From Candidatus Methanoperedens sp. (GTDB lineage Archaea > Halobacteriota > Methanosarcinia > Methanosarcinales > Methanoperedenaceae): DNA of 38,582 bases. The stretch is from contig JAPZAO010000186.1 in assembly GCA_027460615.1 (NCBI GenBank), positions 1 to 38,582 on the forward strand, written 5' to 3'. A program made the translations under genes and the position numbers. The notes under the pieces are model-generated. The model had not been told where the DNA came from and searched no databases. It saw only the letters and a program-made list of their open reading frames with translations. This document shows positions 5,406 through 35,263 of this stretch, in pieces; position 1 is the stretch's first letter, and every line of letters begins with the position of its first letter.

Positions 5406-7561
5406 CAGCCCCGTATTTTAACAAATCTAAATTCGGAGGTTACTATGCACAGTATGACGATCCTTATGGACCATATAAAAAGTATGATCCACCTCACTGG
5501 ACAGTGCCCATAGACCGCATGCCCAATACCACGGACTGCCTGTTCTGCCACAACCAGAGCATTGGAACAATAAGAAATGGATGGGGCAATGCTTTGCAGG
5601 TAAACGCCAGCAACATGTTCGGGAACAGATATTCAATAAGCACCGATTCGTGCTATGCCTGTCATACCAGGAACCAGGGCATGCCGGTAGATTTCCATTC
5701 AAACGAAGTAGTACTCGGCGGCGGTCCCGGATGCCTTTACTGCCATAACAACTCCAATCCCCAGAACTTCACAGGCCTGAATTACATAGATGGCGCGAAT
5801 TTCAGCATATCCGTGCATGCGAACATGAACAGCAATAACGCTTCGGGCTATGGCATAAACGCAAGCTGCTGGGCATGCCATAACTCAAGCGGCTACGTGG
5901 TAGCTAACAACACCCACCCGGATAAGAGAGACACGCCCTACACCTGCCCGGATTGCCATCTTGCGAATGGCAGCAATGCAGGAGCATACAATGCAACGAT
6001 TATATCCAATCATTACAGGAACGGCACAAATATCAGGGCGCTGGACAACAGGACAAGCGACCTTGCCTCCTGCCTGGGGTGCCATGAAAATGTATCCGGA
6101 ATGATAACAGCAAATAATGATACGGATTATGGCTCATTCGCAAGTGACGGGGTTGGTGTTAACGGAGGAAACATGAGCTTCTACCATTACGGCGCCAACA
6201 GGTCAAGCTTTGGAATGACCGCAGGGAGTTATGATTATTGTATATACTGCCATAGTAATGTTACAGGTGAATTTAACAGCGTATTCCAGGACAATGCCAA
6301 CAGAAGCATCTCCAACCACAGCCTGAGATACAATTCCTCCAACCCGTCATGCAGCGTTAGCGTTTGTCACAATAGTACAAATTCGTCGCTGCATGGTGTT
6401 CAATTAATTAAACCGAACATTAACATCACACTGTATAATAGCTCTTATTGCCTAAGTTGCCATGGACTGAATGTATCAAATGGAGCCACAAATTATACCG
6501 GAGCAGTGACAACCTATAAAGAAATGCACAACAATTCGGTCAATTGCACGGAATGCCATACAGGTCCGGATAAGAAAAATATCCATCCAATGACATATCT
6601 CCAGCCTAATGGCACATATTATACCGGGAACCAGACGGCTGTAAATTGCACCGATTGCCACCAGCAAAATACATTGGATTCACAACTTTCAAAAACGCCT
6701 CCAAAAGTCTCCACAGTCCAGCACGGTAATAGCTCGTTGAATAGTTCTTTTTGGAACGGCACGCAGCAGGGGTATTGGACCAATACCAGCCAGGAGAGTA
6801 TGTGCGATTATTGCCACGGCGACTCAAGGCATAATGCAACAGGCCTCGGGAGACCTTCCAACTGGAGCGGAAGCAATATTATGAATTCATCAATTACCAG
6901 CAATGGCAACTGGTGTGCAGGATGTCATTATCAGGGTTATTCCAACAGCGAAAAGTTCAACATTAACATGACCCAGTCCTTTTCGGGCGTCAATCTTTCA
7001 GTGCCTCCTGAGATTACAAACTCCTCAATCTATTCACCTTACAATTTGAACGGTTATTATAACCACTCCCTGACACCTGATTATAACGATACCACATGCA
7101 AGGGCTGCCATGGTAAATCCCTGTCTGCCGGCACCATAAGCGAATTTATACATAATATTAACACCGGGCTATGCACAAGCTGTCACTTCAGCTACGACTA
7201 CATGAACGGCAGCGTAAACAAACCTGATAAGTATGTCAATTCAACCATGTTCAGTGCGAGCCCACACGGTTCATTGGCATGCGAGGACTGCCACACGAAA
7301 GGGCACAATGATATCGGCGCGAGAAAATCATGCGAGGACTGCCATGCCTACCAGAGTGATCCAAAGAATGAAACAGAAAGGCATAACATAACAAGTAGTC
7401 CAGGCACATATAATTACAATGGAATAAATGTTGTAAATATCACCGACTGCACCGTCTGTCATGATTCGTCATATTATAATAACGCAATAGCCAGTTATGG
7501 CTACAATAAGACTATAGATTGTAACTATTGCCATACATATCCGGACAAGACATATTCATGA
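5391..7561 (+). CDS. Multiheme c-type cytochrome with at least 19 heme motifs, N-terminus missing
   Basis: From about 5,391 to TGA at 7,559-7,561 the frame encodes about 720 residues of multiheme cytochrome. I count 18 canonical CX2CH heme-binding motifs (first CLFCH, then CYACH, CLYCH, CWACH, and finally CNYCH). There is also one CX4CH variant, CSVSVCH, eighth in order. Spacing is fairly even and the linkers are very rich in Asn, Ser, Thr and Tyr, with dozens of NxS/NxT sequons, as expected for a glycosylated extracytoplasmic archaeal protein. The open frame continues upstream to 5,243, but those roughly 48 residues are the antisense of the ligase and are not real, so the signal peptide is lost. 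Two smaller cytochrome genes follow within 8 and 4 bases, suggesting one operon for extracellular electron transfer. Confidence 0.85.
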
Positions 7562-15550: not shown

Positions 15551-18500
15551 GATCAATTGGGTAAATCCGTATATCAGAGATTATCGAAGCAATATCATCA
15601 GAGCAATAATTTTTTTGACAATATTATTATTGATCGGGAGAGCAAGTGCTACAACGCTTACCGTGGACGACAGCGGTGGATCTGATTATAGGAGAATTCA
15701 GGATGCAATTAATGCAGCGAGTGATGGGGATACCATTCTTGTTTACAGCGGTACATATTATGAGAATGTAAATGTTAGCAAACAATTGGTGCTGCGTGGA
15801 ATTGGAAAGCCTGTGGTGGACGCAGGTGGGGGTAGTTATGCTATAACTTTGAGCGCAGGAAAAAGCACGCTTGAGGGATTTACTGCTGTAAATGCTGGCA
15901 ACCTGAGTGAGAAAGAAAACAACCTGCGTGAGATTGAAAAGGAGTTAAAATCAGCACCTGAAGGATTTGTTATCAAACTGAAGAGCGCAACGGATGATGC
16001 AGGAATCATGGTGGAGTCAAACAACAATATAATCAGAAATAATACGATTTCGAACAATGAAGAGGGTATCCGCGTGATGGATTCCATCAACAACATAGTG
16101 AGTGACAATACAGCCATAAACAACTTCTTAGGCATCTATTTGTACTATTCCAAAAATAACACGGTGGGTGGCAACACGGTCTCAAATAATATGGGCAATG
16201 GCATCCATCTGTACTATTCCAATAACAACATCATTATAGGCAATTATGTGAGCAATGACAAAATCTCGATAGATGAGTCATCCAATTACAATATTCTCTA
16301 TCAAAACAACCTCGACAGCCATTCCTATGCCTCCGATTACGGCACCAATCAGTGGGATAACGGCATCAATATAGGTAATTACTGGAATTACTATACGGGT
16401 ACCGATGCTAACAACGACGGCATCGGCGACACACCTTACAATGTAAGCGGCGACACCAGAGCGCAGGACAGATACCCACTGATGGTTCCGTATATGGGGC
16501 AGACGCTTCAACTAACCCCTCTAGTCACAGACCCAGCTGAATCAGATGTTCATGTACATAAGGTGAACAAGTTATTCTTAATTAATCTTAGTTTAAATCA
16601 TAATCAACTCTATGATTTTGATACGCTGTGGACTCCAAACGTTTGGAGTGTAAAAAATTTAAATTATGTAATCTTTAAAATCTCTACACCATTAAATTTC
16701 ACGAAAATAGAGAACTATGAAGAATATCAAAACGGGTCAGAGGTTAGTTCTTCTATACAGTATACACATACAGGGAATGATTATGTATGGAATCTGTCAT
16801 TAGTCGATCGTATAGGTTCAAATATTGATTTGTATACCAACGAAATTAACCACACAAAGCCTTGGGCAGATCTGGCAATAATCAAAACTCAAGAAGGTAA
16901 CAATACAAGATTGAATATAACCTATATTCCTGCAATCCCTCTTGACTATAATCATTTAAGAATCAGAGCTGAACGGATTTTGTCTTATACATATCCAAAC
17001 AATCTATTTTCTGTGGCACTTGGTCAGAGCAGATTAGACTTTAGAAGTGATAACCCCATTCAAAACCAGGCATATAATTTTTCGGTTTTGGTAAATAATC
17101 CAGAGGAAGTTAATCTTTGGTTGGATAATTCATTTGATTGGGTTGAAGATCAACCATCAAATCATATCTCACTTCCAGTTAGTGGATTTGGAAGTATTAA
17201 TGTGAGTACAAATGTTCCAGTAAAATGGAATCATAGACCTGTGCAACCGCAGTATGTGCAGGATATAACCATCAATATGAGCGCGTCCACCCAAACTCCA
17301 ACATTTACTCCAAAATATTATTCAGAGCACCCCAAAAATGTTGAAGTAGATGGAGAAATAAATCTCAACAAAAATAATTTATCTTTTGGGGATACTCTGA
17401 ATATAAAGGCTAGAATTAAATTAATCGGCAGCGAAAAAATTTATGGGGCTCCTGTTTTAATACTTTGGAAAATGGAAAAAGAAAACTCAACTGTATCTAT
17501 GGCCGAGTGGCAGCTTACTGAAACTAATCAGGTTATTAAAGAGTTTAAAGATTATGAAGATTATAAATATTGGTGGATTCCACCAAGTAACGAATTTAAT
17601 TTTGATGTTAATTGGAAGTGGGAGAATCCAGAAATTTCCTCTGGTACATACCAAATCCAAGTAGCAATTTCAACCCTCCGTGTACCTAATTCTCCTGAAG
17701 GATGGTTACTTTCAGGGGATAGCCCAAATCCACGAGTTCAACTTAAGGGTGCATATAGTTGGATACCTATACCAACATCTGTTTCTCAAGGTTTGAGTTC
17801 TTATTCAGCAATAATTGGTACAATAATTACGGTGTTGGCAATTTTTCTCATCTTTCTAGCTGTTGTTTACTCTAACAGAATAAAGGATGAAAAACTCATT
17901 ATTCAACGAATTGATGAACTAATTGTCGGTGTAAAAACGAAAAAATTCGATAATAATGAACTAAGGGATAAATTAATTGAGATAAATAAAGAGCTATCAC
18001 ATAAAGAATCCTATGGTACCTCATATAAGGGTTATTTCTTTGCTGTTGCGCTTGTGCTGAGCGTGCTACTGCTGCTGGGATACCTGACGCTGGCACCGGA
18101 GGCTGAAGCGCCTATAAACATGAAATCAATCAACACGCCAGCTCTAACAATTAAAGCAACTCCAAATATAACACAGACTCCTACGGTCACTCCAACAACA
18201 ACTACAACTGCCACACCTGTAAGATTGAAAGTAGTAGAAGATGTATTCAATGGTGATGCATCCGCTGTTAATGAAGCAGGTCTGGAAATATTCGAAAATG
18301 GTTATTATTATGTTGTAGATTGGCAGGGAGATAAATATGTAGCTCTGAAAGGAAAGACAAACAAATTGGTAAAACTGATACTTGAGCAAAAAAACATCGA
18401 GAATAAAGTCCTTACGGTTGGCGAAACTTGGGATGTAGGTGGCGGCTGGACATTAACTGCTCAGGCAATTGATGCGAAAGCATCCCCAAGACAGGTATGG

Positions 18501-19820
18501 CTTGTTCTCAATTATAAAGGTGTCAAGAAAGACGATAGGGTAAGGGGTATGGGCAGCGTGTACACTTATGTCGAGAAGAGTATCGGGGGTGAGTCTGATG
18601 TGCCGCTGTTTGTAACATACATCGCCGATGTGTATGCTGGTGCGACAAGTGATATGGTTCAGCTTCGCTATACATGGGCGGTAGATACAACCATTATTCA
18701 GACCCCCAAGATTACTCCAACAGTTTCCCCGACACCCACTGCAGCTATTACTGAAACTCCCACACCTGAACATGCGGTTGTTGCTACACCGACTGGAAAA
18801 ATTGTTTATGGCAGGGTAGATTATAGAGAGTTTTCGGTTTCAAATCTACAAATATATACGGGCGATGCGATATCATGGAACAATTTTGACGAATACACTT
18901 CGTACACGATAGTGGAAATGGACCAAAAGTTGCCGAACATGACTTTGAGACCATATGGAAGGTTAACTTACGTATTCAATACCACTGGCAACTACAGATT
19001 CGGGCTATATTATCCCCTTATGAAAACAGGTCCACGTATCCAGAATATCACTGTAAGAGTTTCCCCTGCACCCATGATAACATCGATAACAGACCAAAAA
19101 ACCATCACCAACTCTATCGGCATGGAATTCGTGCAGATATCTGCGGGCGAGTTTGACATGGGTTCTAATGAAAGCGTGCTGGGCTTTGGAAAAAATGCGA
19201 GGGTGGAAACTTTTGCTGAAGGGCCCATACATCACGTAAAGATAGCAAATGCTTTCTACATGGACAAATATGAGGTCACTCAGAAGCAGTGGCGCGAGGT
19301 CATGGGAAATAATCCCTCTAATTTCAAGGGCGATAACTTACCTGTTGAAGAGGTATCATGGAATGATGCCCAGGAATTCATCAGAAAGCTCAATGAGAAA
19401 GAAGGCACGAACAAGTACCGCCTTCCTTCAGAGGCGGAATGGGAATATGCGGCGCGAGCAGGAACCACTACAAGATATTCCTTCGGCGATGATGAATCAA
19501 ATCTCGGCGATTATGCATGGTACGAGGCTCCCCCAAGCAGCGAAACCCACCATGAAGTAGGTCAGAAAAAGCCCAATCCATGGGGTTTATACGACATGCA
19601 CGGCAATGTCGGGGAATGGGTGCGGGATCTTTATTATGATAGCTACGACGGCGCACCCACAGACGGCAGTGCATGGGAAGAAAATGATGTCCCCGCCCGT
19701 GTCATTCGGAGCGGCGGCTGGGGTTGCGGCTCCGGGAACTGCCGGTCGGCGGCTCGCAGCGCCAACTACCCCGGCGACCGCAATCGCTACGTTGGCTTTC
19801 GCCTCCTGAGGGTTATGTAG
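15468..19820 (+). CDS. Giant multidomain surface protein: beta-helix, membrane segments, cupredoxin-like domain, C-terminal FGE/C-lectin domain (copy 1)
   Basis: Up to 1,450 residues. In order these are: a signal peptide (IIFLTILLLIGRASA, about 47-62); NosD-like right-handed beta-helix repeats (about 65-345, many NNxxxxN turns); a unique beta-rich part (about 350-620); a segment shared with copy 2 starting EVDGEINLNK (about 625-760); and two TM helices around a charged coiled segment (IKDEKLIIQRIDELI, about 785-880). Then come a Thr-rich linker, a DUF4352-like domain (about 925-1,065), a cupredoxin-like domain without obvious copper ligands (about 1,105-1,200), and an FGE-sulfatase/C-lectin domain (about 1,205-1,450; RLPSEAEWEYAARAG, WGLYDMHGNVGEW, GFRLL). 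No start codon follows the stop of the preceding gene before the signal peptide. The in-frame ATGs (15468, 15474) overlap that gene by about 80 bases, so the true start is unsure. Confidence 0.7.
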   Translation: MFMVWLEKAKILKKDCLKLLFIPFALNEINWVNPYIRDYRSNIIRAIIFLTILLLIGRASATTLTVDDSGGSDYRRIQDAINAASDGDTILVYSGTYYENVNVSKQLVLRGIGKPVVDAGGGSYAITLSAGKSTLEGFTAVNAGNLSEKENNLREIEKELKSAPEGFVIKLKSATDDAGIMVESNNNIIRNNTISNNEEGIRVMDSINNIVSDNTAINNFLGIYLYYSKNNTVGGNTVSNNMGNGIHLYYSNNNIIIGNYVSNDKISIDESSNYNILYQNNLDSHSYASDYGTNQWDNGINIGNYWNYYTGTDANNDGIGDTPYNVSGDTRAQDRYPLMVPYMGQTLQLTPLVTDPAESDVHVHKVNKLFLINLSLNHNQLYDFDTLWTPNVWSVKNLNYVIFKISTPLNFTKIENYEEYQNGSEVSSSIQYTHTGNDYVWNLSLVDRIGSNIDLYTNEINHTKPWADLAIIKTQEGNNTRLNITYIPAIPLDYNHLRIRAERILSYTYPNNLFSVALGQSRLDFRSDNPIQNQAYNFSVLVNNPEEVNLWLDNSFDWVEDQPSNHISLPVSGFGSINVSTNVPVKWNHRPVQPQYVQDITINMSASTQTPTFTPKYYSEHPKNVEVDGEINLNKNNLSFGDTLNIKARIKLIGSEKIYGAPVLILWKMEKENSTVSMAEWQLTETNQVIKEFKDYEDYKYWWIPPSNEFNFDVNWKWENPEISSGTYQIQVAISTLRVPNSPEGWLLSGDSPNPRVQLKGAYSWIPIPTSVSQGLSSYSAIIGTIITVLAIFLIFLAVVYSNRIKDEKLIIQRIDELIVGVKTKKFDNNELRDKLIEINKELSHKESYGTSYKGYFFAVALVLSVLLLLGYLTLAPEAEAPINMKSINTPALTIKATPNITQTPTVTPTTTTTATPVRLKVVEDVFNGDASAVNEAGLEIFENGYYYVVDWQGDKYVALKGKTNKLVKLILEQKNIENKVLTVGETWDVGGGWTLTAQAIDAKASPRQVWLVLNYKGVKKDDRVRGMGSVYTYVEKSIGGESDVPLFVTYIADVYAGATSDMVQLRYTWAVDTTIIQTPKITPTVSPTPTAAITETPTPEHAVVATPTGKIVYGRVDYREFSVSNLQIYTGDAISWNNFDEYTSYTIVEMDQKLPNMTLRPYGRLTYVFNTTGNYRFGLYYPLMKTGPRIQNITVRVSPAPMITSITDQKTITNSIGMEFVQISAGEFDMGSNESVLGFGKNARVETFAEGPIHHVKIANAFYMDKYEVTQKQWREVMGNNPSNFKGDNLPVEEVSWNDAQEFIRKLNEKEGTNKYRLPSEAEWEYAARAGTTTRYSFGDDESNLGDYAWYEAPPSSETHHEVGQKKPNPWGLYDMHGNVGEWVRDLYYDSYDGAPTDGSAWEENDVPARVIRSGGWGCGSGNCRSAARSANYPGDRNRYVGFRLLRVM
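19698..19809 (+). other. Candidate diversity-generating-retroelement variable region in copy 1
   Basis: The last ~37 codons of the FGE domain (RVIRSGGWG...CRSAARS...YVGFRLL) match the consensus layout of DGR variable repeats in C-lectin fold proteins: RV(L/I)RGGSW, NxRSAxR, GFR. The DNA is strikingly GC-rich compared with the rest of this AT-rich gene, as expected when template adenines in AAY codons have been replaced. No template repeat or reverse transcriptase is seen in this window, so the call is provisional. Confidence 0.5.
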
Positions 19821-20002: not shown

Positions 20003-20079
20003 TAACAATTCAAGCTCAATTACCTTGGATTGATAATCTTAATTGTGGTTGATATAGCATCTTGAAACGACAGGTAAAA

Positions 20080-23000
20080 ATGGTATCGAATAATAATATT
20101 TACAGAAGGCGCATTCTCAGAGCAATAATCATATTGGTAATATTTTTCCTTATAGGAGGTGCAAGTGCTGCAACGCTTACCGTGGACGACAGCGGCGGCG
20201 CTGATTATAAGCGAATTCAGGATGCAATTAATGCAGCGAGAGATGGGGATACCGTTCTTGTTTACAGCGGCACATATTATGAGAATGTCAATGTGAACAA
20301 AAAATTGGTGTTGCGTGGTATTGATAAAGGCGGTGGAAAGCCTGTGGTAGACGCAGGTGGGAATGGCTATGCTATAACTTTGAGAGCTGGAAATATCACG
20401 CTTGAAGGATTTGTGGCTGTAAATGCTGGCAACCTGCGTGAGCTTGCAAAAGAATTTAAATCCGCACAGGAAAGAGGTGTCGAAGGTGTCAAACTGAAGA
20501 ACGTACGGGGTGATGCGGGAATCAGGGTGGCATCAGACAACAATATAGTCAGAAATAATACGGCTTCGAACAGCGAAGAGGGTATCCGCGTGATGGATTC
20601 CATCAACAACATAGTGAGTGACAATACAGCTATAAACAACTACTTAGGCATCTATTTGCACTATTCCAAGAATAACATGGTGAGTGGCAATACAGTCTCA
20701 AATAACATGGCTAATGGCATCTATTTGTGGTATTCCAATAACAACGTCATTACAGGCAATTATGTGGGCAACGACGAAATCGTGATAGATGAGTCTTCCA
20801 ATTACAATATCCTTTATCAGAATAACCTCAACAATGCCAACGATCACGGCACTAATCAATGGGATAACGGCATCAATATAGGTAATTACTGGAGTGACTA
20901 TACAGGCACTGATGCCAACAACGATGGCATCGGCGACACACCTTACAATGTAAGCGGCAACCCCAAGACGCAGGACAGATATCCGCTGATGGCTCCGTAT
21001 ATGGGGCAGACGCCCCAGCTAATCCCAACAGCTTTACCATCACCAAATGTAGAAGTAGATGGGGGGGTAAATCGCAACAAAGAGAGTCTATCTTTTGGGG
21101 ATACTTTGAATATAAAGGCTAGAATTAAATTAATTGGCAGCGAAAAAATTTATGGGGCTCCTGTTTTAATACTTTGGAAAATAGAAAATGATCGCCCGAC
21201 TAAATCCATAGCCGAGTGGCAGCTTACTGAAACTAATCAGGTTATTAAAGAGTTTAAAGGTTATAATGATTATAAATATTGGTGGATTCCACCAAGTAAC
21301 GAATTTAATTTTGATGTTAATTGGAAGTGGGAGAATCAAGAAATTTCCTCTGGTACATACGAAATCCAAGTAGCAATTTCAACCCCCCGTGCATCTAATG
21401 AAGGATGGTTACTTTCAGGGAATGGCCCAAATCCACGAGTTCAACTTAAGGGTGCACCTATCTCGATACCGGCAGTTATGGCAATAGCATCTTCAGTATC
21501 GATAATAAGCGACCAAGACTACATGGAACAGCAATTTGTTTCAAACGGCGTTTTCTCATCAGGCCCGACAGATCTTATTTACAGGATGAGACTGGATATA
21601 AGACCAACATCTGGTAATTTCCAGGTTTCAAAGATTGTAATCTACAATACCACAACAATCGACATTAACAGGACGTACTATCAAATTGATGGCAAAACTA
21701 AGGGAAGAGGGACTATTTCCGTTTTTCCAAACCGCATAGAGTGGCAGGGACTTGCTGAAGCACCTGCATCAGAGTTTGAACTGGGAATACATGCTTCCAA
21801 TCCATACAGGCGCGATATTCCATTTTCATCAACGAGGTCAGTTTCCAAGGACATGTTGAGTGGAGAAGATAGGATCAATGTTTATTTCTCGGTAACTCCA
21901 TCTCAAAACCTGCGATCTCTTGATGTTTCAACTTACGCAGAAGATACGGATGAGATTTATTCACAACTTCTAAAAAATACTGCCACCAATGCCGAATATA
22001 TAGATAAGACAAGTTCGAACGAAGTGGAATGGAAGTTTGAAAATAGTGTTCCAGATAATACCTACACTGGTTCAGTTCAATTAAGAGCAACTCCTAAAAG
22101 TAGTGGAATTACGCGATATTGGCCGTACACTAGGATACAGGTTGACTATGGTAGCGGTTACACATATAAAAGCAGTGGTTTTGGAGCTAAGGTAGTTCGT
22201 TACACTGACACGGTAATTGGAGATGTTGAGATATACTTCGTAAACCCGGTAGAGTATAAGATTTCTTCAAATGGTAAAGGAGTTTATTACCAGCGTTACC
22301 GCCAGTATTCAGAAATAGTAACAAACGGTGAGCCACCTACTATAGAAATAGATGACAATTTCAAGCCTGGAACAAAAACAATCCCAGTAGGCACTACTGT
22401 AACCTGGATAAATAATGATCCAATTTCACATACTATTGTCAGCAACGAAGGAGTCTGGAGTTCTCCTCCACTTGAACAATATCGACCTTTCTCTTACACA
22501 TTCAACACACCAGGAACTTATGAGTATAGTTGCAATATTCATACATCAATGAAGGGAACGATTATTGTAACAAGCACGGGGGGCGTCATTGGAAGTATTT
22601 TGCCGTCAATATCGCCATCACTATTACCATTAAAATCACCATCAACATCACTACCGATATCACCATCGATAATTGGTACTATAATTACTGTGTTGGCGAT
22701 TTTTCTCATCTTTCTAGCTGTTGTTTACTCTGACAGAAAAAAGGATGAAAAACTCATTATTCAACGAATTGATGAACTAATTGTCCTTGTAAAAACCAAG
22801 AAACTCGATAATAATGAACTAAGGGCTAAATTAATTGAGATAAATAAATATCTATCACATAAAGAATCCTATGGTACCTCGTATAAGGGTTATTTCTTTG
22901 TTGTGGCTGTAGTGCTGGGTGCGCTGTTGTTGGGATACTGGATGTTTGCGCCGATCACTCAAACTTTTTCCGAGACACCTATAATTACATCGACGGCAGA

Positions 23001-24594
23001 TCATGTTTCGACCGAAACGCAAAAACATGCGGGCACAAATCCTAACCTTGATGCAGCAATCGTAAAAGTGAAATTTGACAGGGATAATGTTGTAGCCGGA
23101 GAAAAAGTTTTAGCAGAATTTGTGGTGGGAAATACAGGCTTAGAAAAAATCACCAATGAAACCGTTGAAATAAAAGCCAAAGTATTGACGCTTGATGATT
23201 TCCTTGCAAACCTGTATTTAAAAACCATGAGCTATGAAAAGAAAACAGGGACTTTTACAATGGGCTTTGATACGCCGATTGAGCCGGGAAAAAATAATCG
23301 CATTAGCGCAGTTTTCCGCACCGAGAAGGAAAGAAATGGCAGAAGCCTCGCCGGTACTTATGAGGTCACGACCACTCTATTTGTCAACGGGCAGTATGCA
23401 GATACAAAGGTGCTACCGATAACACTCCTATCAGGCACACCCAGAGAATTCACGCCTACTCCGGTACCCACCCCACCGCCGACTCCAACCCCCACACCTG
23501 CTCCTACGCCGACACCTACGCCAGAACCTGTGACTGTAGCCACACCCACAGGAAAGGTTGTTTGGGGAAGGGTACTAAATGGAAAGTTTCCAGTTACGAA
23601 TCTCCAGATAAACGCCGGCGACCAGGTAGTGTGGGACAACCCAGACGAGACCGTGTATACGATAGTCGAGATGAACAAAAAGATTTCCAATATAACCCTC
23701 CCGGATCTTGGAAAGGCAAAATACACTTTCAACACAACAGGAAGTTATAGATTCGGCTTATATTACAAATACATGAGTACCGCACCGAGCATCCAGAACA
23801 TCGCTGTAAAAGTTCCCAATGTTACTAAAACTGTTCCCCCAACACCCATAACCACACCAACCCCACAAAAAACTTTCGCCAACTCCATCGGCATGGAGTT
23901 CGTTTTGATACCTGCGGGCGAGTTTGATATGGGTTCGCCATCGAATGAAGCAGGCAGGTACGATAACGAAGGCCCAGTGCATCGTGTAATAATCTCAAAA
24001 ACTTTCTATATGGGCAAATATGAGGTTACTCAAAAGCAGTGGCGCGAGGTTATGGATACCAATCCTTCTGCTTTCAAAGGCGACAATCTGCCTGTTGGAA
24101 ATGTAGATTGGAATGATGTTCAGACTTTCATCAAAAAGCTTAACGAGAAAGAAGGTACAAACAAGTACAGCCTTCCCTCTGAAGCAGAATGGGAATATGC
24201 TGCTCGTGCTGGCACAACAACGAAGTATTCCTTTGGCGATGATGAATCAAAGCTCGGAGAGTATGCATGGTACTGGGGTAACTCAGGCTCTGAAACCCAT
24301 GAAGTAGGCCAGAAAAAGCCCAATCCATGGGGGTTGTACGACATGCACGGCAATGTCGGGGAGTGGGTGCAGGATAAATGGCATGATAATTATAACGGCG
24401 CGCCCACTAATGGCAGTGCGTGGGAAGTATATGGCTCTCGTCGGGTACTCCGGGGCAATAAGTATTTCTACTTTTCAGGATATGGTCATTCTCGGGACAA
24501 TAGCTGGGGTGCTTTTCGCTCTGCGTCTCGCCAAGACGAAGACGTTATCTTTCGCTTCGATGATCTCGGCTTTCGCCTCGTGAGGGATTTATAG
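20080..24594 (+). CDS. Giant multidomain surface protein with beta-helix, amicyanin-type cupredoxin, CARDB-like and C-terminal FGE/C-lectin domains (copy 2)
   Basis: About 1,504 residues from ATG 20080; an in-frame TTG at 20062 is an alternative. In order these are: a signal peptide ending GGASA; NosD-like beta-helix (about 30-315); the shared EVDGGVNRNK domain (about 325-460); a unique domain (about 465-745); and a type 1 copper domain (about 750-835) with ligand His in SHTIVS and the C-x2-H-x2-M loop SCNIHTSM, as in amicyanin/halocyanin. Two TMs enclose the same charged segment as copy 1 (about 865-975). A CARDB-like domain (about 990-1,115), a Pro/Thr minisatellite linker, a ligand-poor cupredoxin-like domain and the FGE/C-lectin domain (about 1,260-1,504) complete it. 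It is a tandem paralog of the preceding gene with a different middle, and was probably remodelled by domain exchange. Confidence 0.75.
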   Translation: MVSNNNIYRRRILRAIIILVIFFLIGGASAATLTVDDSGGADYKRIQDAINAARDGDTVLVYSGTYYENVNVNKKLVLRGIDKGGGKPVVDAGGNGYAITLRAGNITLEGFVAVNAGNLRELAKEFKSAQERGVEGVKLKNVRGDAGIRVASDNNIVRNNTASNSEEGIRVMDSINNIVSDNTAINNYLGIYLHYSKNNMVSGNTVSNNMANGIYLWYSNNNVITGNYVGNDEIVIDESSNYNILYQNNLNNANDHGTNQWDNGINIGNYWSDYTGTDANNDGIGDTPYNVSGNPKTQDRYPLMAPYMGQTPQLIPTALPSPNVEVDGGVNRNKESLSFGDTLNIKARIKLIGSEKIYGAPVLILWKIENDRPTKSIAEWQLTETNQVIKEFKGYNDYKYWWIPPSNEFNFDVNWKWENQEISSGTYEIQVAISTPRASNEGWLLSGNGPNPRVQLKGAPISIPAVMAIASSVSIISDQDYMEQQFVSNGVFSSGPTDLIYRMRLDIRPTSGNFQVSKIVIYNTTTIDINRTYYQIDGKTKGRGTISVFPNRIEWQGLAEAPASEFELGIHASNPYRRDIPFSSTRSVSKDMLSGEDRINVYFSVTPSQNLRSLDVSTYAEDTDEIYSQLLKNTATNAEYIDKTSSNEVEWKFENSVPDNTYTGSVQLRATPKSSGITRYWPYTRIQVDYGSGYTYKSSGFGAKVVRYTDTVIGDVEIYFVNPVEYKISSNGKGVYYQRYRQYSEIVTNGEPPTIEIDDNFKPGTKTIPVGTTVTWINNDPISHTIVSNEGVWSSPPLEQYRPFSYTFNTPGTYEYSCNIHTSMKGTIIVTSTGGVIGSILPSISPSLLPLKSPSTSLPISPSIIGTIITVLAIFLIFLAVVYSDRKKDEKLIIQRIDELIVLVKTKKLDNNELRAKLIEINKYLSHKESYGTSYKGYFFVVAVVLGALLLGYWMFAPITQTFSETPIITSTADHVSTETQKHAGTNPNLDAAIVKVKFDRDNVVAGEKVLAEFVVGNTGLEKITNETVEIKAKVLTLDDFLANLYLKTMSYEKKTGTFTMGFDTPIEPGKNNRISAVFRTEKERNGRSLAGTYEVTTTLFVNGQYADTKVLPITLLSGTPREFTPTPVPTPPPTPTPTPAPTPTPTPEPVTVATPTGKVVWGRVLNGKFPVTNLQINAGDQVVWDNPDETVYTIVEMNKKISNITLPDLGKAKYTFNTTGSYRFGLYYKYMSTAPSIQNIAVKVPNVTKTVPPTPITTPTPQKTFANSIGMEFVLIPAGEFDMGSPSNEAGRYDNEGPVHRVIISKTFYMGKYEVTQKQWREVMDTNPSAFKGDNLPVGNVDWNDVQTFIKKLNEKEGTNKYSLPSEAEWEYAARAGTTTKYSFGDDESKLGEYAWYWGNSGSETHEVGQKKPNPWGLYDMHGNVGEWVQDKWHDNYNGAPTNGSAWEVYGSRRVLRGNKYFYFSGYGHSRDNSWGAFRSASRQDEDVIFRFDDLGFRLVRDL
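23455..23532 (+). repeat. Pro/Thr minisatellite encoding a linker
   Basis: Short imperfect repeats of the CCNACNCC type encode alternating Pro-Thr (TPVPTPPPTPTPTPAPTPT). This is a flexible, probably O-glycosylated spacer between the CARDB-like and cupredoxin-like domains, and a likely site of length variation. Confidence 0.7.
24439..24585 (+). other. Candidate diversity-generating-retroelement variable region in copy 2
   Basis: The last ~48 codons (RRVLRGNKY...GAFRSASRQ...DLGFRLV) follow the same C-lectin variable-repeat plan as copy 1 but differ at almost all positions between the fixed anchors FRSASR and GFRLV, and are longer. Both genes then share the downstream motif ATGCCTT(A/G)GCGAAG about 40 bases after the stop (19,858-19,873 and 24,626-24,641), a position where DGR homing signals usually lie. 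Confidence 0.45.
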
Positions 24595-24655: not shown

Positions 24656-25687
24656 TCAGCCGCCAGCCATGTTTAATAACGATTCAATTTTTTTCTTAGC
24701 GCTCATTCTGTCTTTTTGCCTAATATCATCTTTGATTTCTTTTAACATATGCACAATATCTTCTTTAGTAGGAGAAAGTTCTATTCCGTCGACTTTCTCG
24801 TCAATTATAACATTTATATTTCCTTTTAAATTGGGATTATCTGAATTGTATATTATGAAGTTATAATTAAAATTGTAATTATAATTATAATGTAATCTAT
24901 TCAAAAAAAGCAGGGCTATCTCTATGCTCTTGGCCGCAAGCTTTATTGATTGATTTCCATCCAAACACATTTTTACTTTCTCTAATAAAGATGAGACATC
25001 AGTTCTAAGTTCAGTATTAGGTTCGTTAATGAAGTTAAATACAGCATCTATATCGTGTATTATTTTTTTATTATATTCTTTTATATCTTCATCTGCTTTA
25101 TTATAAAATCTTTTCAACGTTGTTGACAGATCAGATTTTGCATTATTTTCATGAACTTTGTATAAAAAATAGCATCTATCATATCTTTTTTTCGATATTT
25201 CACCTGGTTTTTTGTATATATTTAGCTTACTATTTTCTTTCTTCGCTATTAATTCATCAGTCCTACCATCATCGATTTCTAGGTTTACTTCGGATTTTTC
25301 ATCGTTAAGTCTTAGTGAAATATAATTTTTTCCAACAGATACTACAATGGTCTTACCGTTATCGATTTTGTCAATTTTTGCAGTTTTTACCAAACCAGTA
25401 CCGAATTTTTGTATTAGGAATTCTTTGAGTCTCCCACTATCGTTTCCTGGAACATCATCCCAGCTAAACAAATGCGGTTTTTCTGAATCATAATATGCAT
25501 GATGAATTATCTTTGTGTCATCTTTAGATTTATAGATTGCAAGATCTGGTAATTGCTGCATTTCTATTTTTATTCCAGATTCATCCAGTCTGTAACCCAT
25601 TTCTTTCAATGTTGTCTTTTCTTTACTATTCAAACGAGACAAAAGAGAACCAGTACTATCAATTATTATTAAAGACTCATCTATCAC
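24656..25687 (-). CDS. Soluble protein carrying the shared WDxPG module; last gene of the tubulin/GTPase operon
   Basis: This 343-residue protein has no TM or signal. It starts at GTG 25687, overlapping the stop of the upstream GTPase gene as GTGA, so it is translationally coupled. Residues 1-73 begin MIDESLIIIDSTGSLLSRL and may be a small alpha/beta domain. Residues 74-160 are the module common to all four operon proteins (FSWDDVPGND, then alternating strands ending KLNIYKK). Residues 160-260 are helical and charged, and a Tyr/Asn-rich stretch (YNYNYNFNYNF) lies near 275. The last helix (about 300-343) ends SLLNMAGG. No known family was recognised; it may be an adaptor for the other three products. 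Confidence 0.7.
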   Translation of the reverse strand: MIDESLIIIDSTGSLLSRLNSKEKTTLKEMGYRLDESGIKIEMQQLPDLAIYKSKDDTKIIHHAYYDSEKPHLFSWDDVPGNDSGRLKEFLIQKFGTGLVKTAKIDKIDNGKTIVVSVGKNYISLRLNDEKSEVNLEIDDGRTDELIAKKENSKLNIYKKPGEISKKRYDRCYFLYKVHENNAKSDLSTTLKRFYNKADEDIKEYNKKIIHDIDAVFNFINEPNTELRTDVSSLLEKVKMCLDGNQSIKLAAKSIEIALLFLNRLHYNYNYNFNYNFIIYNSDNPNLKGNINVIIDEKVDGIELSPTKEDIVHMLKEIKDDIRQKDRMSAKKKIESLLNMAGG

Positions 25688-27222
25688 TTACCAACCTCAT
25701 CCAGCACCGCATCATATCCAAAAATGATAAATCCAGTTTCGTTCCTTTCAGGAGCATTATTTTTTTCCAAAACCATAACTGGAAGTATGCCTTTAGACTC
25801 TCTTTCTATAGTTTTAAAATCTGGATCCTTTCTAATTTCGTTGAGTACACATTCTTTAAATTTTTCATAGTTTTCCCTAGAATTGCCACATTCACTCAAC
25901 TTATCGCATTTGGTCACGACAAAATAGTATGGTTTTTTTTGTCCGTTTTGTTCCAATACGTCCAATAATTCTTTATAAATATCAACAATATAATTATCAC
26001 TGAATATATACGGAAATTTCACAGTTAGTTCGCCAATTTTATCAATTTTTCCATCAATGTTTTTTAAGTAAACATCAACCTTATTATTGTTAAGATTTAG
26101 CGAAACAGATTTCTCATTATCAGATACATTTATAGTTTTGTCATTGCTTTTATTAATTTTAGTATTTCCTAAATCTAAACCATACTTCTCACTTAGAACG
26201 TCTTTGAGTCTTATGTTATCGTTTCCTGGAATTTCATCCCAACTAAACAAATACTTATCAGGGTCGATCAGAAATATCAACCTGCTTGCATTCTTTATTC
26301 CGTCAGCAACTAATCTAATTTGTACTATGGGCTTATTATCAATATTAATTAGGTTGTTGCCATTGAGAACATTTATAATATCTTTGATATTTGTGTCTAA
26401 TATGTCTCCTGCATAATCAATATCCATATCAACCTCCTTTGTAAAAATCCTCCCATGTATATATTTGAGACCGACTTGGTTCTCTACCTTAGTTGCATCT
26501 GGCCATTTTCCATGCAATTCTGTATAAATACCAGAAAGATTCTTGTTAGGATTACCAATAACCCTTTTTTTCTTTCTTGCTTCTTCATAAAGTGCAGCAG
26601 TAAATACTGTTTTCCCAGATTTTCTAGGTCCAACAATGAATAATTTACACTCACTTTCTGCATATACGGCAAACATATAAATAACCACACTAAATAACAA
26701 TGCAAGCAAAATGTAAATTATGGAAGCATTAACTTCCGACCTACCTGCAATATAGTTTAAAAGAGTGAGCCACACAATAGCACTGGAAACAATTGCAAGA
26801 ATCATCAGAGATGTTTTGCAATTGATGTAATCTTTTTCTTTTCTTCTGGTTATATGGCTAATAAAAGCACCTGCGATTAATCCACTGAAGAACATTAAAG
26901 GGCGAAGAATAACTATATAAGTATATGCAACAACGATAATTAAAGAAGCAAAAAGGATCATATAACTCTGTTTCCGCCTTGTCCAATCATAATACCCAGC
27001 AATTATAGCGATGCCGTAAAACAGACCAAAACAAAAAGTAAGAAAACTTAACCATAATTTCTTAATAACCATATAAAATGCACTTGTACTCATATATCCA
27101 AAATCTCGTGAGTCAGTAAACAAATTCTTTAGGCCAAAAGAAATTAATATAAGTAATGCACAGTATAATATAATAATATAATTATCATACTTTTTTTCCC
27201 ATAATTCTATTTTATTTAACAT
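25684..27222 (-). CDS. Membrane-anchored P-loop GTPase with the WDxPG module inserted in its G domain
   Basis: This is a 512-residue protein with about six hydrophobic helices in residues 15-185, then a cytoplasmic G domain. Walker A is GPRKSGKT at 198-205, a probable G3 DxxG is DYAG at 269-272, and G4 is TKCD at 437-440. Between the strand RLIFLID (about 314-320) and G4 lies the shared module (about 326-400, FSWDEIPGND...). The GTPase fold is thus apparently interrupted. AGGAGA sits a few bases before the ATG, and a 74-base AT-rich gap upstream may hold an internal promoter. The specificity motif argues for GTP. It is probably the membrane-bound switch or anchor of the tubulin-like protein encoded just upstream; that role is inferred from context. 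Confidence 0.75.
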   Translation of the reverse strand: MLNKIELWEKKYDNYIIILYCALLILISFGLKNLFTDSRDFGYMSTSAFYMVIKKLWLSFLTFCFGLFYGIAIIAGYYDWTRRKQSYMILFASLIIVVAYTYIVILRPLMFFSGLIAGAFISHITRRKEKDYINCKTSLMILAIVSSAIVWLTLLNYIAGRSEVNASIIYILLALLFSVVIYMFAVYAESECKLFIVGPRKSGKTVFTAALYEEARKKKRVIGNPNKNLSGIYTELHGKWPDATKVENQVGLKYIHGRIFTKEVDMDIDYAGDILDTNIKDIINVLNGNNLINIDNKPIVQIRLVADGIKNASRLIFLIDPDKYLFSWDEIPGNDNIRLKDVLSEKYGLDLGNTKINKSNDKTINVSDNEKSVSLNLNNNKVDVYLKNIDGKIDKIGELTVKFPYIFSDNYIVDIYKELLDVLEQNGQKKPYYFVVTKCDKLSECGNSRENYEKFKECVLNEIRKDPDFKTIERESKGILPVMVLEKNNAPERNETGFIIFGYDAVLDEVGK

Positions 27223-27296
27223 AATTTCTCCTATTAATTATAAGATATTACCATTAATTATGCATACGCATACATATTTTATATGTGTTTATATAA
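27223..27296 (-). promoter_or_regulatory. AT-rich spacer with TATA-like boxes before the membrane GTPase gene
   Basis: On the minus strand the gap holds ATTATATAAAC, then CATATAAAATATG, with ACATA/TATGT inverted arms at 27,272-27,286, and finally AGGAGA at the start codon. This is the only sizeable gap in the operon and could carry an archaeal internal promoter with an overlapping operator. Confidence 0.4.
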
Positions 27297-29861
27297 TCAC
27301 AAACTATTTTCTAAATTATCCAAATCTCCTTTTATCAGATGCAATATATCTTTCAATTTATTGAACACAAGAATATCTTTTGTTTGTTTATTACTGTCTT
27401 TCTGAAAAACGTCATTATTTATTAGTTTTTCAATATTAGAAGAAACATCTTTAATAAATTGTCTAATATTATTCTGGTATATGTTTAAATTATTTCCTTC
27501 AGTCTTCGCAATAAGTTTATCAGTTTTTTTGTCATCTATTCTTAGGTCAACCTTTGTATTGTTATTATTAAGCTGTAGCGAAATAGACTTTTTACTATCA
27601 TCAGTTGCTACTATAGTTTTATCATCGATTTTCCTAATATTAATTGATTTCCGAGCTAAACCATAACACTTATTTAGAAAGGATATGAGTTTTATGTTAT
27701 CGTTTCCCGGGATATCATTCCAGTTAAACAATAAATCACCCTCCATTCTTGCAACTATATTCCCCCTGAAAGGCTGGTTTATCCAAGCTAAAATATTTTT
27801 CTTTTCTTCCTCTAGATTTTTTTTATATTGATTTAATGTAGATAATACTCCCTTTAACTCAGTAATGATTTTTTCACTCTCTTTTTCTTCTATGAATCCC
27901 ATTATTTTACACACTTCTTGATCAATCTCAGCAAGAGTTATTGGAATTTTTAAAAATGGATCCTCACAATTATAATTCTCCCAGAAAGAAATCACTGTTT
28001 CAGTGCCTTCCTGATCTGTATTTCCTATTGATATACCTGTTAAATTTTCGAATGCGTTAGAATCCCCTAAGAACAAAGAGTGATGCATAGATAATATGGA
28101 GTGATTTTTGTTATATTCTTGTTCTAGAGTATCTATGTTTCTGAGAGCCCATGGATGCAATCCTATCCATAAATTATATAAATCGACTTTAAATTCTTCT
28201 CCATTTTTATAAGGAAACATTTGAGCTTTTTCAGCAATATCTCTTGTCAAATTGACTCGAGCATTAGCAAAATTGAGTTGATTTATATTGCCTATATTAT
28301 CCTCTGCCGTACAAAGTATAGAAAGTGCACATTTCATCTTTTGTTTAGTTATAAAATCCCGCTTTGACAGTTCCGCCCGAACATCTTGATCTGGTGCTCC
28401 AGGTGAATAATTATAATCAAGAAGAATTCTGGTGAGATCATTTAGATTTACAAATGGTCTTTGTACGGCGTCAAAGATAACCTCTGGTCTATTCAGAAAT
28501 TTATCGCCCATGGCTTGTTGAAAAGAAACAGGTAATCCTTTGTCCTTCAATAATTGTATTTCATGGTTACTTAGTGTAATAATTTCTCTATGATCTTTAC
28601 ACTCAGGTTTTAATATTTCTTTATGAAGTGTTTGTACATATGTATTACTTTCGTTATATATATCAACTAATACCTTCATCTGCTTCACGTGCTCTTCTAA
28701 CTTGCTTTTTAAACGTTCGATTTGTTCTTTAAGCGATTTTGCCAGAGTGTTATTGTTGTTCACATCATTAGAATTCTTCAAATCTCCCATACTCTTCTTA
28801 ACAACAGATAACTTTTCGTTTAAAGCTTCAATGTCTTCATGTATTTTAATATTCGAATAGTCATTTTTTTTCAGAGCTTCCTGAAGTTCATTTATCTTGC
28901 CCTTATTAATCAACAGATCTTTTAAAAAGTTTTCAATCACTTGAATATTCGTCTCCATCTTATAATAATCGTCTATTTTCTTTTTAGGGAACTCTGTTGA
29001 TTTGTAACCTATTGTTGAAAATGAATTGGTATTACGGCTCAGAAAATAAACCAAATCATTAAAATCGAACCACTTATTTTGATGGTCTGCATCATTTCCT
29101 TGAACATTAAGATCTCCTCCCATCCTAACAAGATCTGAAAGAAATTTGATTATTGTTTCTTCCAATGTATGATCTTGTAATTGTCCATTTCTATCATCTC
29201 TAGATGCAAGGGTTAACAAATGAAATGGATTAAAGTATCCATTTCTTTCATTATCTATCGATAAAAGAAAATTCAACTCTTTTAATGCGGCCATGGCATT
29301 TATTTTGCTCTCATCCGTATCATCTCTGGACGGAAGTATTCCAAAGCCAAATATTATTGTGCCGGGGAAGTTATTTCTCATCCATCTTTTTATATCAAGT
29401 GATAAATCAGGAATTAAACCCGAACCTGTCCCTCCCCCTAAAGCACAGAATATGACAATCAAAAATTGGTTAATGTCAGGATTTCTTTGTCGTAATTCGT
29501 TTACAATATTTATTAGTTTATTTTCAATACTCGTTTTATAAAAATCATAATAAGCTTTGCTAACGGCTCGGCGCGTTCCTACACCATTTAGAAACAAAGT
29601 TTGAGCTGTATTCTGTGTTATCCAAGCATGATCCGTGAAGTAAGCATCCGGAGGTTTTTCAAGAAAGAAATCTTCCTTTATTACATTGGGCTGTTTTATT
29701 TTACTCCATAATTCATCAAGATCGTTTTTATTACTATCTAAAAAAAGGAAGGCTTTTTTTCCGTCTATACCTCCATGTGAATCAAGATATTTAGCAAAAC
29801 TATTAACCATTTTGCACCCAACTTCTCCAAGACCAATTATTATCTGGTTTACCTCTGGCAT
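27297..29861 (-). CDS. Large tubulin/FtsZ-superfamily GTPase with coiled-coil extension and C-terminal WDxPG module
   Basis: The protein is 854 residues from ATG 29861, chosen for the GGAGTGA eight bases upstream (an in-frame TTG at 29885 is inside the preceding gene). The N-terminus IIIGLGEVGCKMVN is the first nucleotide-binding loop, and GGGTGSG at 142-148 is the tubulin/FtsZ signature. WFDFNDLVYF (about 264-273) resembles the T7 loop that completes GTP hydrolysis in the next subunit. Residues about 340-425 form a long coiled coil; a large helical region follows. The shared module occupies about 712-796 (FNWNDIPGND). This is more than twice the size of FtsZ or TubZ. It recalls the large FtsZ-like families proposed to act in membrane remodelling, rather than cell-division FtsZ. 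Confidence 0.8.
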   Translation of the reverse strand: MPEVNQIIIGLGEVGCKMVNSFAKYLDSHGGIDGKKAFLFLDSNKNDLDELWSKIKQPNVIKEDFFLEKPPDAYFTDHAWITQNTAQTLFLNGVGTRRAVSKAYYDFYKTSIENKLINIVNELRQRNPDINQFLIVIFCALGGGTGSGLIPDLSLDIKRWMRNNFPGTIIFGFGILPSRDDTDESKINAMAALKELNFLLSIDNERNGYFNPFHLLTLASRDDRNGQLQDHTLEETIIKFLSDLVRMGGDLNVQGNDADHQNKWFDFNDLVYFLSRNTNSFSTIGYKSTEFPKKKIDDYYKMETNIQVIENFLKDLLINKGKINELQEALKKNDYSNIKIHEDIEALNEKLSVVKKSMGDLKNSNDVNNNNTLAKSLKEQIERLKSKLEEHVKQMKVLVDIYNESNTYVQTLHKEILKPECKDHREIITLSNHEIQLLKDKGLPVSFQQAMGDKFLNRPEVIFDAVQRPFVNLNDLTRILLDYNYSPGAPDQDVRAELSKRDFITKQKMKCALSILCTAEDNIGNINQLNFANARVNLTRDIAEKAQMFPYKNGEEFKVDLYNLWIGLHPWALRNIDTLEQEYNKNHSILSMHHSLFLGDSNAFENLTGISIGNTDQEGTETVISFWENYNCEDPFLKIPITLAEIDQEVCKIMGFIEEKESEKIITELKGVLSTLNQYKKNLEEEKKNILAWINQPFRGNIVARMEGDLLFNWNDIPGNDNIKLISFLNKCYGLARKSINIRKIDDKTIVATDDSKKSISLQLNNNNTKVDLRIDDKKTDKLIAKTEGNNLNIYQNNIRQFIKDVSSNIEKLINNDVFQKDSNKQTKDILVFNKLKDILHLIKGDLDNLENSL

Positions 29862-29868
29862 TAAATAT

Positions 29869-30714
29869 TCACTCCAAAATATCAATTTTTTTTATATATA
29901 TTTTTAGTTTATCGTTATCCTTGTTATCCTTGATCGCTATCAATTTAGGAATCAATTCTTTATTACCGTCTTTTTTATTTTCTTTTTGTAAAATAACTTC
30001 ATTATTTTTAATTCGTAAAAAAAGTTTTTCATCATCATCAATCGTAACTTTTATTGTATCTTTTCCAGTTTTTACTATTATTGCAGTTTGTAATGAATGA
30101 ATATTATAGGTCCACTTCAGAAATTCTTTGAGCTTTTCTATTTCTTGAGGGCTTCCTGGAACATCGTCCCAGCAAAATTTTTCATCACAATACTCTTTTA
30201 TTTTTTTATCGGACTCTTCTTTTTTTTCATCCAGACTTTTTGAAATTTCGGAAAGTTCGTTTTCAATGTTTTGAAGATTATCTTTAATATCATTCTTCAA
30301 TATTTCTTGTCTTGCATCGTTTGCTCGGTAGTTTTCACTGTCCAAATGTCTTTTTGAAAAAAAACTACCTAACGTGCTCATCAGCCCAATAATAAGCAAA
30401 AAAAGAAAATCTGGTTGTGAATCTAAATCATACATCTCAAGCAACGTGAGCAAATAACCAAACAATCCAATCATAAAAATAATTATGCTTAAAACCATCA
30501 ATTGAAAAAAGCGATCTGATAAAGCTTTATTATTTTTAATCTCTTTTTCTTTCCTTTTCCCGGAACTCATAAATAATATTAGAATTGCAATCCCCAGTAA
30601 AAGAATTGCAAGAAACGACTCCTGAGTAATGATCTCATTGTAGTACAAGAAACCAGAAAAAATTGACAAGAGAACTCCTGCAATTAACCATCCAATAATT
30701 AATATGCTAGCCAA
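29869..30714 (-). CDS. Four-TM protein with coiled coil and C-terminal WDxPG module; first gene of the operon
   Basis: The product is 281 residues from TTG 30714. No in-frame ATG or GTG precedes the first TM, and an in-frame stop lies just upstream. Hydrophobic segments lie at about 4-24, 33-50, 71-90 and 99-120. A coiled coil (about 125-175, rich in Glu/Lys, with NIENELSEISKSLDEKKEE) follows, then the shared module from F180 (FCWDDVPGSP) to near the end, with an insert after the strand ILQKEN. It ends 7 bases before the tubulin-like gene. Layout suggests a membrane receptor or anchor that presents the coiled coil and module to the cytoplasm. No named family was recognised. Confidence 0.7.
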   Translation of the reverse strand: MASILIIGWLIAGVLLSIFSGFLYYNEIITQESFLAILLLGIAILILFMSSGKRKEKEIKNNKALSDRFFQLMVLSIIIFMIGLFGYLLTLLEMYDLDSQPDFLFLLIIGLMSTLGSFFSKRHLDSENYRANDARQEILKNDIKDNLQNIENELSEISKSLDEKKEESDKKIKEYCDEKFCWDDVPGSPQEIEKLKEFLKWTYNIHSLQTAIIVKTGKDTIKVTIDDDEKLFLRIKNNEVILQKENKKDGNKELIPKLIAIKDNKDNDKLKIYIKKIDILE

Positions 30715-34348: not shown

Positions 34349-35263
34349 TTAGTCCTCAATAAAATAATCTGTGTCGATTTTTTTAAGTTCGAATGTTTCC
34401 ACTTTTGAGACACCAATATCATAATCAATCATAAGGTCAGCAAGTTCATTTCCATCAATCAACCTAATTTTGGCATCTATACTTTCAGCATAATCTCTGG
34501 CATCTTTGGAAAAATTGGAGGTTGTAATGAAAATTCCCTTTTTTGCCCTTTGCCCTAATAATGCTCCCGCAAATTTGTGTATCTCAGGTCTACCTACTGT
34601 TCCGTCCCATCTCTTAGCTTGAATATAAATGACATCCAATCCTAATTTATCTTCTTTAATTTTCCCATCTATGCCTCCATCTCCACTTTTTCCTGTAATT
34701 TCTCCAGCTTCTGGGAGATAACCTCCATATCCCATTTTTAATAATAAATCTATCACAAGTTTCTCAAAAAAGTAGGGCGAGGTAGTTTTAACCGAAGTTA
34801 ATAATTCTTGAGCCAGATCATGTTTAATCTCCTCATATGCCTGTCCCAATATTTCTTCGGGTGTCTGTTGATTAAGTTGCTGTTCCTTCTCTAAGTCTGG
34901 ATTTTCTATCTCACTCCTTTTTAAAGTTATAAACTCTAAAAAGTCAGGGAATTGTTCGAGATATTTCCTATCAATTTCTTGTGGATTCTTTTTCAAAACC
35001 TCCACTCCCTTATCCGTAATTTTAAAAAATGACCTTTTAGTAGTCTCTAAAAGTCTGGCTTTCTTAAGATATGTTCTAGCCCATCCAGTCCTATTATTAA
35101 TGATTGGTTGTTGTCCGCTGGGTAACAGTATTCTTTTTTCTTCTTCACTTAAACTGAATAGTTTAGAGATATAATCAATTGCCTCTCTTATCGAATGTTC
35201 TTTTTTGTCTTCTGCAAATTTCAATAATGGAAGCATTATTTTTTGATAATCAGGGATTGCCAT
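34349..35263 (-). CDS. Mrr-type restriction endonuclease (probable type IV, methylation-dependent)
   Basis: This 304-residue protein has an Mrr N-terminal winged-helix domain (about 1-95; KEHSIREAIDYI, GWARTYLKKARLLE, FKITDKG). A charged helical linker follows, then the Mrr catalytic domain (about 165-285). The PD-(D/E)xK core is GDGGIDG with D199 and YIQAKRW with Q215 and K217, the typical D...QxK form. Mrr proteins cut DNA bearing foreign methylation. No adjacent methyltransferase gene is present, consistent with type IV. It is immediately upstream of elp3 on the same strand, probably without functional link. Start at ATG 35263. Confidence 0.88.
   Translation of the reverse strand: MAIPDYQKIMLPLLKFAEDKKEHSIREAIDYISKLFSLSEEEKRILLPSGQQPIINNRTGWARTYLKKARLLETTKRSFFKITDKGVEVLKKNPQEIDRKYLEQFPDFLEFITLKRSEIENPDLEKEQQLNQQTPEEILGQAYEEIKHDLAQELLTSVKTTSPYFFEKLVIDLLLKMGYGGYLPEAGEITGKSGDGGIDGKIKEDKLGLDVIYIQAKRWDGTVGRPEIHKFAGALLGQRAKKGIFITTSNFSKDARDYAESIDAKIRLIDGNELADLMIDYDIGVSKVETFELKKIDTDYFIED

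Follow-up and report, generated by a model that had tools for sequence, protein, structure and literature searches.

A domain-encoding MITE with IS66-type ends in Candidatus Methanoperedens and its relatives

A module marked by the motif WDxPG interrupts a membrane GTPase of Candidatus Methanoperedens, and with a probability of about 0.92 it is the translated body of a ~262-bp non-autonomous MITE that is mobilised in trans by an IS66-family transposase and adds a domain to the protein into which it inserts. The window, the whole stretch of DNA analysed (38,582 nucleotides; contig C186 of source genome G000), has four copies in a single operon. Elsewhere copies are dispersed among unrelated genes, sites that are filled in some genes are empty in their homologues, the copies have terminal inverted repeats and 8-bp target-site duplications, and an IS66 insertion sequence with matching ends is present in a sister species. 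In the mechanism proposed, the IS66-family transposase would supply mobility in trans, an insertion in the sense orientation and right phase would give the host protein an extra ~87 residues forming a self-contained alpha/beta domain, and insertions into tolerant surface loops would survive. For the GTPase, P0001, the tolerant site would be the beta4-alpha3 loop, module-free relatives being intact.

An interrupted GTPase within an operon with four copies

Four genes form a run in the order P0004, P0003, P0001 and P0002, and each carries one copy of the element (Table 1). As the copies are located at unrelated places in the four proteins, four insertions into one operon is the simplest reading. 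The copy in P0002 is clearly young.

Table 1. Genes, element copies and motifs of the operon, with positions in the window
Feature	Position	Strand	Remark
P0004, small membrane protein	29869..30714	minus	operon's first gene
Old diverged copy in P0004, aa 178-273	29896..30184	minus	recognised by profile alone
P0003, tubulin-like	27297..29885	minus	Pfam Tubulin_2, E 1.8e-18
Element copy in P0003, aa 718-803, 259 bp	27477..27735	minus	duplication 4/8 only
P0001	25684..27222	minus	multi-pass membrane protein, C-terminal Ras-like GTPase domain interrupted by module
G1 / Walker A GPRKSGKT, P0001 aa 198-205	26608..26631	minus	motif position check
G3 DYAG (DxxG), P0001 aa 269-272	26407..26418	minus	motif position and homologue alignment
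Strand beta4 RLIFLIDP, P0001 aa 314-321	26260..26283	minus	final host stretch ahead of insertion
Element inserted in P0001, aa 324-402	26017..26254	minus	5′ end GTATTTGTTTAG intact 12/12; 3′ end eroded
G4 TKCD, P0001 aa 437-440	25903..25914	minus	motif position
P0002	24656..25687	minus	operon's final gene, bears young copy
8-bp target-site duplication, 5′ side of P0002 copy, GAAAAACC	25476..25483	minus	7/8 match to 3′ side
Element copy in P0002, aa 72-158, 262 bp	25214..25475	minus	starts G CATTTGTTTAGC, ends CTAAATATATAC
8-bp target-site duplication, 3′ side of P0002 copy, AAAAAACC	25206..25213	minus	7/8 match to 5′ side

The motifs of P0001 (512 aa) lie exactly where a first-pass annotation had placed them, and its proposal of a discrete module nested in a Ras-like G domain, with G4 after the module, is borne out by homologue alignment, a structure model and VIA-align. 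G1, G3 and G4 are conserved between P0001 and five sister-species homologues, all five of which lack the module, although one of these ORFs (L079) is cut short. The segment with no counterpart extends from residue 324 to ~402; a foreign segment is thus present as predicted, but within these limits rather than 326-400, and with the 3′ end eroded the right limit is uncertain by ~10 residues. A blastp alignment with the homologue at locus L078 pairs residues 68-324 with 67-328 and 402-510 with 327-444, leaving a clean extra stretch in P0001.

AlphaFold2 folding of P0001 with the five homologues gave a weak model (mean pLDDT 58, pTM 0.50); alignments that mixed GTPases with module fragments were misaligned and left out of folding. 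On this model, VIA-align matched residues 188-512 to Rac, Cdc42, Arl, SsGBP and YcjX with Z scores of 12 to 13.8 and, among the matches listed, 153 to 219 residues aligned. The Foldseek list, which supplied the chains compared by VIA-align, is rich in GTPases, none with E < 0.001, and the Pfam families DO-GTPase1/2 remained below cut-off (E 0.11 to 0.16; 11.7 and 12.6 bits versus 27). The structure prediction that had been proposed as a check returned, at low confidence, a Ras-like fold over 188-512 in the order strand 314-319, module, helix 411-425 and strand 432-436, with TKCD directly following. RLIFLIDP had correctly been taken for a G-domain strand, but it corresponds to beta4 in Ras numbering and the module is, as modelled, an excursion between beta4 and alpha3.

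It had also been suggested that such nesting could couple the GTP state of P0001 to binding by the module. The insertion does occupy a Ras-fold loop adjoining alpha3, and the G motifs are retained. However, they are also all retained in the five homologues without a module, the P0001 copy is eroded, and the module occurs in non-GTPases as well: its copies, which bear transposon ends and target-site duplications, are placed arbitrarily within hosts of 69 unrelated groups. Coupling is unsupported by these results and appears very improbable.

The run of a membrane protein, a tubulin-like protein, a membrane GTPase and a fourth protein (24656-30714 in the window) is recurrent, being found also at L076, L078, L079 and L080. 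At L078 the order is the same and the proteins have 283, 1066, 452 and 326 aa versus 281, 862, 512 and 343 aa in the window, with only the GTPase and tubulin-like genes matched by sequence. The module is absent from every gene at L076-L080. PADLOC gave only weak matches to the operon proteins (best E 0.0013), NCBIfam gave none above cut-off, and no Pfam family exceeded its cut-off in the module frame of the four window proteins. Neighbouring genes of the operon (5243-7561, 15468-19820, 20062-24594 and 34349-35263) encode a multihaem cytochrome with an MtrC/MtrF-like domain, a pair of giant NosD / FGE-sulfatase proteins of which one has an S-layer domain, and an Mrr restriction endonuclease.

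Element ends, target-site duplications and a probable IS66 partner

At its termini the element carries inverted repeats, GTATTTGTTTAGCT / GTATATGTTTAGCT, 14 bp long and identical at all but one position. When the flanks of 94 non-redundant copies were compared, bases -9 to -2 on the left matched bases 0 to 7 on the right at frequencies of 0.48 to 0.59, versus 0.30 to 0.47 expected, on this one diagonal only and with background values on both sides; in 85 copies the diagonal is 8.5 sd above shifted controls. At least six of the eight bases match in 26 of the 94 copies (in 70 shifted controls the mean is 0.86 and the maximum 5) and all eight in five (control mean 0.01), and the duplication score is higher the more intact the ends are (rho 0.49, p 5.5e-7). 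From these flanks, the first base of the element is the G before TATTTGTTTAGCTGG, and it ends with CTAAACATATAC. Among 118 copies, 62 and 61 retain at least 10 of 12 consensus bases at the one end and the other, respectively, 38 do so at both, and 262 bp is the commonest length (67 copies). Inverted repeats match slightly better within a copy than when swapped (8.68 vs 8.45 matches), a small difference that may reflect composition.

Together, the element and its duplication measure 262 + 8 = 270 bp, or 90 codons. The reading frame is open from one end of the element to the other, and both inverted repeats belong to it (YLFS ... LNIY). An in-frame insertion therefore adds a domain of ~87 residues. 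The consensus of 132 near-complete copies, YLFSWDeIPGNDn.RLieFLkqnfgIDWVktAkIEKiDdgkTIkvstekNsLSL.LNdeKTkVnLkIDDgRTDEFiVK.ENGkLNIYk, describes a single domain of 94 columns, predicted in a four-copy model to consist of a strand, a helix and six strands (pLDDT 77, pTM 0.63). Foldseek found no known fold for it (best E 0.12); VIA-align gave a best Z of 5.2 to a PH-like domain, followed by frataxins at ~4, and no fold was assigned.

Not all copies conform. Counting against a transposon origin, the P0001 copy has no recognisable duplication at any of several right limits tried (the best, 6/8, looks like chance), the P0003 copy is imperfect at 4/8 and the P0004 copy has neither a recognisable 5′ inverted repeat nor a duplication (1/8). 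Outside the genus, perfect 8/8 duplications flank two intergenic copies (L181, L285) and, in another family of the same class, a copy in frame in a TPR protein (L277, CAACCGTC on both sides). Many other copies outside the genus are decayed.

The 14-mer GTATWTGTTTAGCT has 44 matches in 22 of 31 genomes, and its reversed control none. Sorted by the next 30 bases, 29 are clear module ends, 8 are clear IS ends and 6 are ambiguous; one match was left out. Two of the matches, in genome G004, bound a 1615-bp element (L243) that lies between genes and has inverted repeats GTATTTGTTTAGCT, the 8-bp duplication AAAAAAAC on both sides and a transposase assigned to DDE_Tnp_IS66 (PF03050; E 4.7e-29, score 102.1 versus a cut-off of 23.1 bits). 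The module ends match those of L243 at 14/14 bp (5′) and 13/14 bp (3′); beyond the ends there is no clear similarity to the L243 interior, and the module has no transposase. Two relatives of L243 (53% identity), for which ends were searched independently, have ends GTATTTGTATAGCT or GTGTTTGTATAGCT and 8/8 duplications GCCTTATT and GATTTTTT. L243 and these two are the only ones among 24 IS66-type loci from relatives for which both ends were found; L319 and L323 have one such end each. Inverted repeats of IS66 elements begin GTAA, those of L243 begin GTAT and those of its two relatives GTAT or GTGT, perhaps identifying an unusual IS66 subgroup. The IS66 family generally produces 8-bp duplications (PMC3916326).

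An IS66 transposase of this kind presumably moved the module copies. Against this, a search of the source genome at E 1e-20 found no transposase of the matching type, and its one IS66 member (G000:C18) does not have such ends. The source bin, with 5.19% contamination, may be a mixture of two species, in which case the window contig is not necessarily from the main species: a second, partial rpoA1 (G000:C188:201-548) is 93% identical to that of G017, and the main copy (G000:C167) 88%.

Host proteins and the fate of inserted copies

A profile of the four window copies identified ten good copies in the source genome and has matches in 47 of 60 genomes, the source included. With a broader profile, 90 of 237 genomes from the class contain the module, as do 48 of 392 genomes from the phylum (21 of 136 genera). 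Viral contigs, plasmids and phages gave no match, and an origin from these was rejected. Closer analysis covered the window and 97 regions, the latter selected from the best-scoring matches and not at random; in all, 141 copies were found in 113 ORFs, which fall into 69 host groups by module-masked BLAST. The module occurs at all relative positions within host proteins. Hosts recognised by Pfam include RNA polymerase subunit A′, Cdc48, an XPD-like helicase, a presenilin-type protease, patatin, DprA, TIR, KAP, NB-ARC/TPR, Baseplate_J, Tail_P2_I, alanyl-tRNA synthetase, T2SSE and TPR proteins; several of the hosts scanned have no Pfam match.

Empty sites are found for several hosts. RNA polymerase A′ carries the insert in four genomes of the genus (G011, G013, G017 and G024) and lacks it in 53 of 60, in which residues 1-168 and 267-974 adjoin directly or lie only a few codons apart; three were not scorable (no match in G028, site uncovered in G029 and G032). 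In family f11 (L290, L291) the module of RNA polymerase A′ precedes the K(F/Y)EKPTTY motif instead of following it, and this is, therefore, a second independent site. Host ORFs of ~1050 aa and equal length, with the module, are present in L290, L291 and further f11 genomes, ~ten genomes in all; the one scanned by Pfam, L290, is RNA polymerase A′, and this suggests an old and inherited insertion. Homologous Cdc48 proteins have the module in D1 (L178, L179) or in D2 (L090, L132). The Baseplate_J proteins L133 and L099 define an empty site with flanks 77 and 65% identical, and empty sites are also apparent in the paralogue pairs at L114 and L108.

Contractile-injection or tail-like operons (L087, L088, L089, L099, L101, L133, L163 and L297) carry the most copies, as many as six in three adjacent genes, and contain, where scanned, Baseplate_J, Tail_P2_I and NHL. 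Six loci in two families (L117, L130, L137, L139, L141 and L175) encode homologous small proteins of 228-247 aa with the module at the extreme N-terminus. These are a possible standalone or domesticated form; the one from L117 has no Pfam match. A further copy (G017:C4:4065-4337) is located inside an open frame of ~7200 codons.

The youngest copies in different hosts have dN/dS values of 0.96-0.97; in the closest pair (L086, 95% identical) differences are equal at all codon positions and dN/dS is 0.97. Pooled pN/pS is 0.58 for 22 module pairs in unrelated hosts and 0.33 for 29 pairs in homologous hosts, and in old pairs the first and second codon positions are more conserved than the third. 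Fresh copies therefore drift, and copies that have settled come under constraint as components of a working protein. Fusion proteins are probably made and functional, with most insertions likely to be near-neutral passengers, but given the pN/pS of 0.33 in orthologous hosts pure neutrality is an incomplete story. Nearly all copies are in frame within ORFs, an excess beyond random insertion that also counts against the transposon reading: the 29 clear module ends identified by the frame-blind 14-mer are all from in-frame copies inside ORFs, and only two clear intergenic copies were encountered. Survival bias may be responsible, if only copies locked into ORFs keep their sequence, as may a benefit to the host.

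On a rival reading, the module might be a functional adaptor: the copies in an operon would bind one another or a shared partner, and selection would have placed one in each subunit of the membrane / tubulin-like / GTPase system, possibly by transposon delivery, and kept it for its function. All four operon genes have a copy, four of the ten in the source genome fall within ~5 kb (chance probability 5e-6 under random placement), operons with multiple copies recur, and both the constraint in orthologous hosts and the almost exclusively in-frame retention are in keeping with this. Resemblance between copies is, however, not greater within an operon than between genomes (median 0.35 vs 0.40), a like operon in sister species is without any module, the hosts RNA polymerase, Cdc48 and alanyl-tRNA synthetase have no common pathway, and the youngest copies have dN/dS near 1; an adaptor role is considered unlikely. 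The presence of inserts in essential genes, including RNA polymerase A′, could alternatively indicate that the insert is removed before or after translation, as an intron, by translational bypass or as an intein, restoring the host protein. This is hardly credible in view of the conserved globular frame, the greater conservation of codon positions 1 and 2 than 3 in old pairs and the finding, for 40 copies, of no RNA structure beyond that of synonymous shuffles (mean z -0.68). An RNA hairpin or bypass element was rejected on the same absence of a structure signal.

A mobile MITE thus remains the preferred explanation, and it has a bolder version, somewhat short of even odds, in which selection, acting on how well the transposon lineage itself spreads, led it to encode an insertable domain that folds by itself and makes landings in essential genes survivable. 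Some copies would then have been fixed in core machines, namely RNA polymerase A′, at two independent positions in two families of archaea, and Cdc48, in each of its ATPase domains. If so, the in-frame excess would mean that translated copies are actively favoured and not merely spared. Many proteins contain nested domains, and how these arose is mostly inferred with no mechanism in view. In this case a DNA mechanism by which a complete protein domain can be inserted within other domains is traceable, with empty and filled sites, and the sequence itself shows the vehicle, a MITE with IS66-type ends, the 8-bp scar and the length arithmetic of 262 + 8 bp, or 90 codons. In annotating genomes of Methanoperedens and relatives, WDxPG modules in common should not be taken as proof of a functional link between proteins.

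Comparison with known systems

No description of the element was found in a search of the open-access PMC literature, a scope that excludes subscription papers. P0001 has the G1, G3 and G4 motifs and the fold of Ras-like / TRAFAC GTPases, and differs from them by the interruption between beta4 and alpha3. With IS66 insertion sequences the module has in common the 8-bp duplications and the 14-bp end of L243, but it lacks a transposase and any clear interior similarity.

Rickettsia palindromic elements are palindromic, with a strong RNA hairpin. According to the review PMC10969869, which covers the work of Ogata et al. (2000, 2002), they measure ~150 bp, and the review considers a similar process conceivable in other prokaryotes. 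They are, like the module, small mobile elements with a conserved open frame, present in frame in many unrelated genes, whereas the module is 262 bp long, unstructured as RNA, a whole folded domain and archaeal. The module also differs in having clear inverted repeats, 8-bp duplications and an identified transposase family. It works like a Rickettsia palindromic element but is not one of them. PARCELs, according to PMC2996958, are likewise protein-coding repeats that have spread into ORFs and have an association with mobile elements; they consist of 25-residue amphipathic tandem repeats, often in membrane proteins, in contrast to the single domain with transposon ends described here.

Prokaryotic MITEs, archaeal ones among them, have according to PMC3119063 inverted repeats and a duplication length in common with a full transposon that supplies transposase in trans, are too short to encode a transposase and have an interior unrelated to the transposon. 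The Haloquadratum MITEs treated there are non-coding in four of five families, or of the ISH2 type with their own ORF, whereas the module is read as part of host proteins, with nearly all copies in frame. The module has inverted repeats of the parent type, is short and without a transposase, and its duplication length of 8 bp is also that of the three IS66-type copies for which both ends were found. The element of Ca. Methanoperedens and its relatives thus has the testable defining features of a MITE, as set out for archaea in PMC3119063, and belongs among the MITEs as one that encodes a domain.
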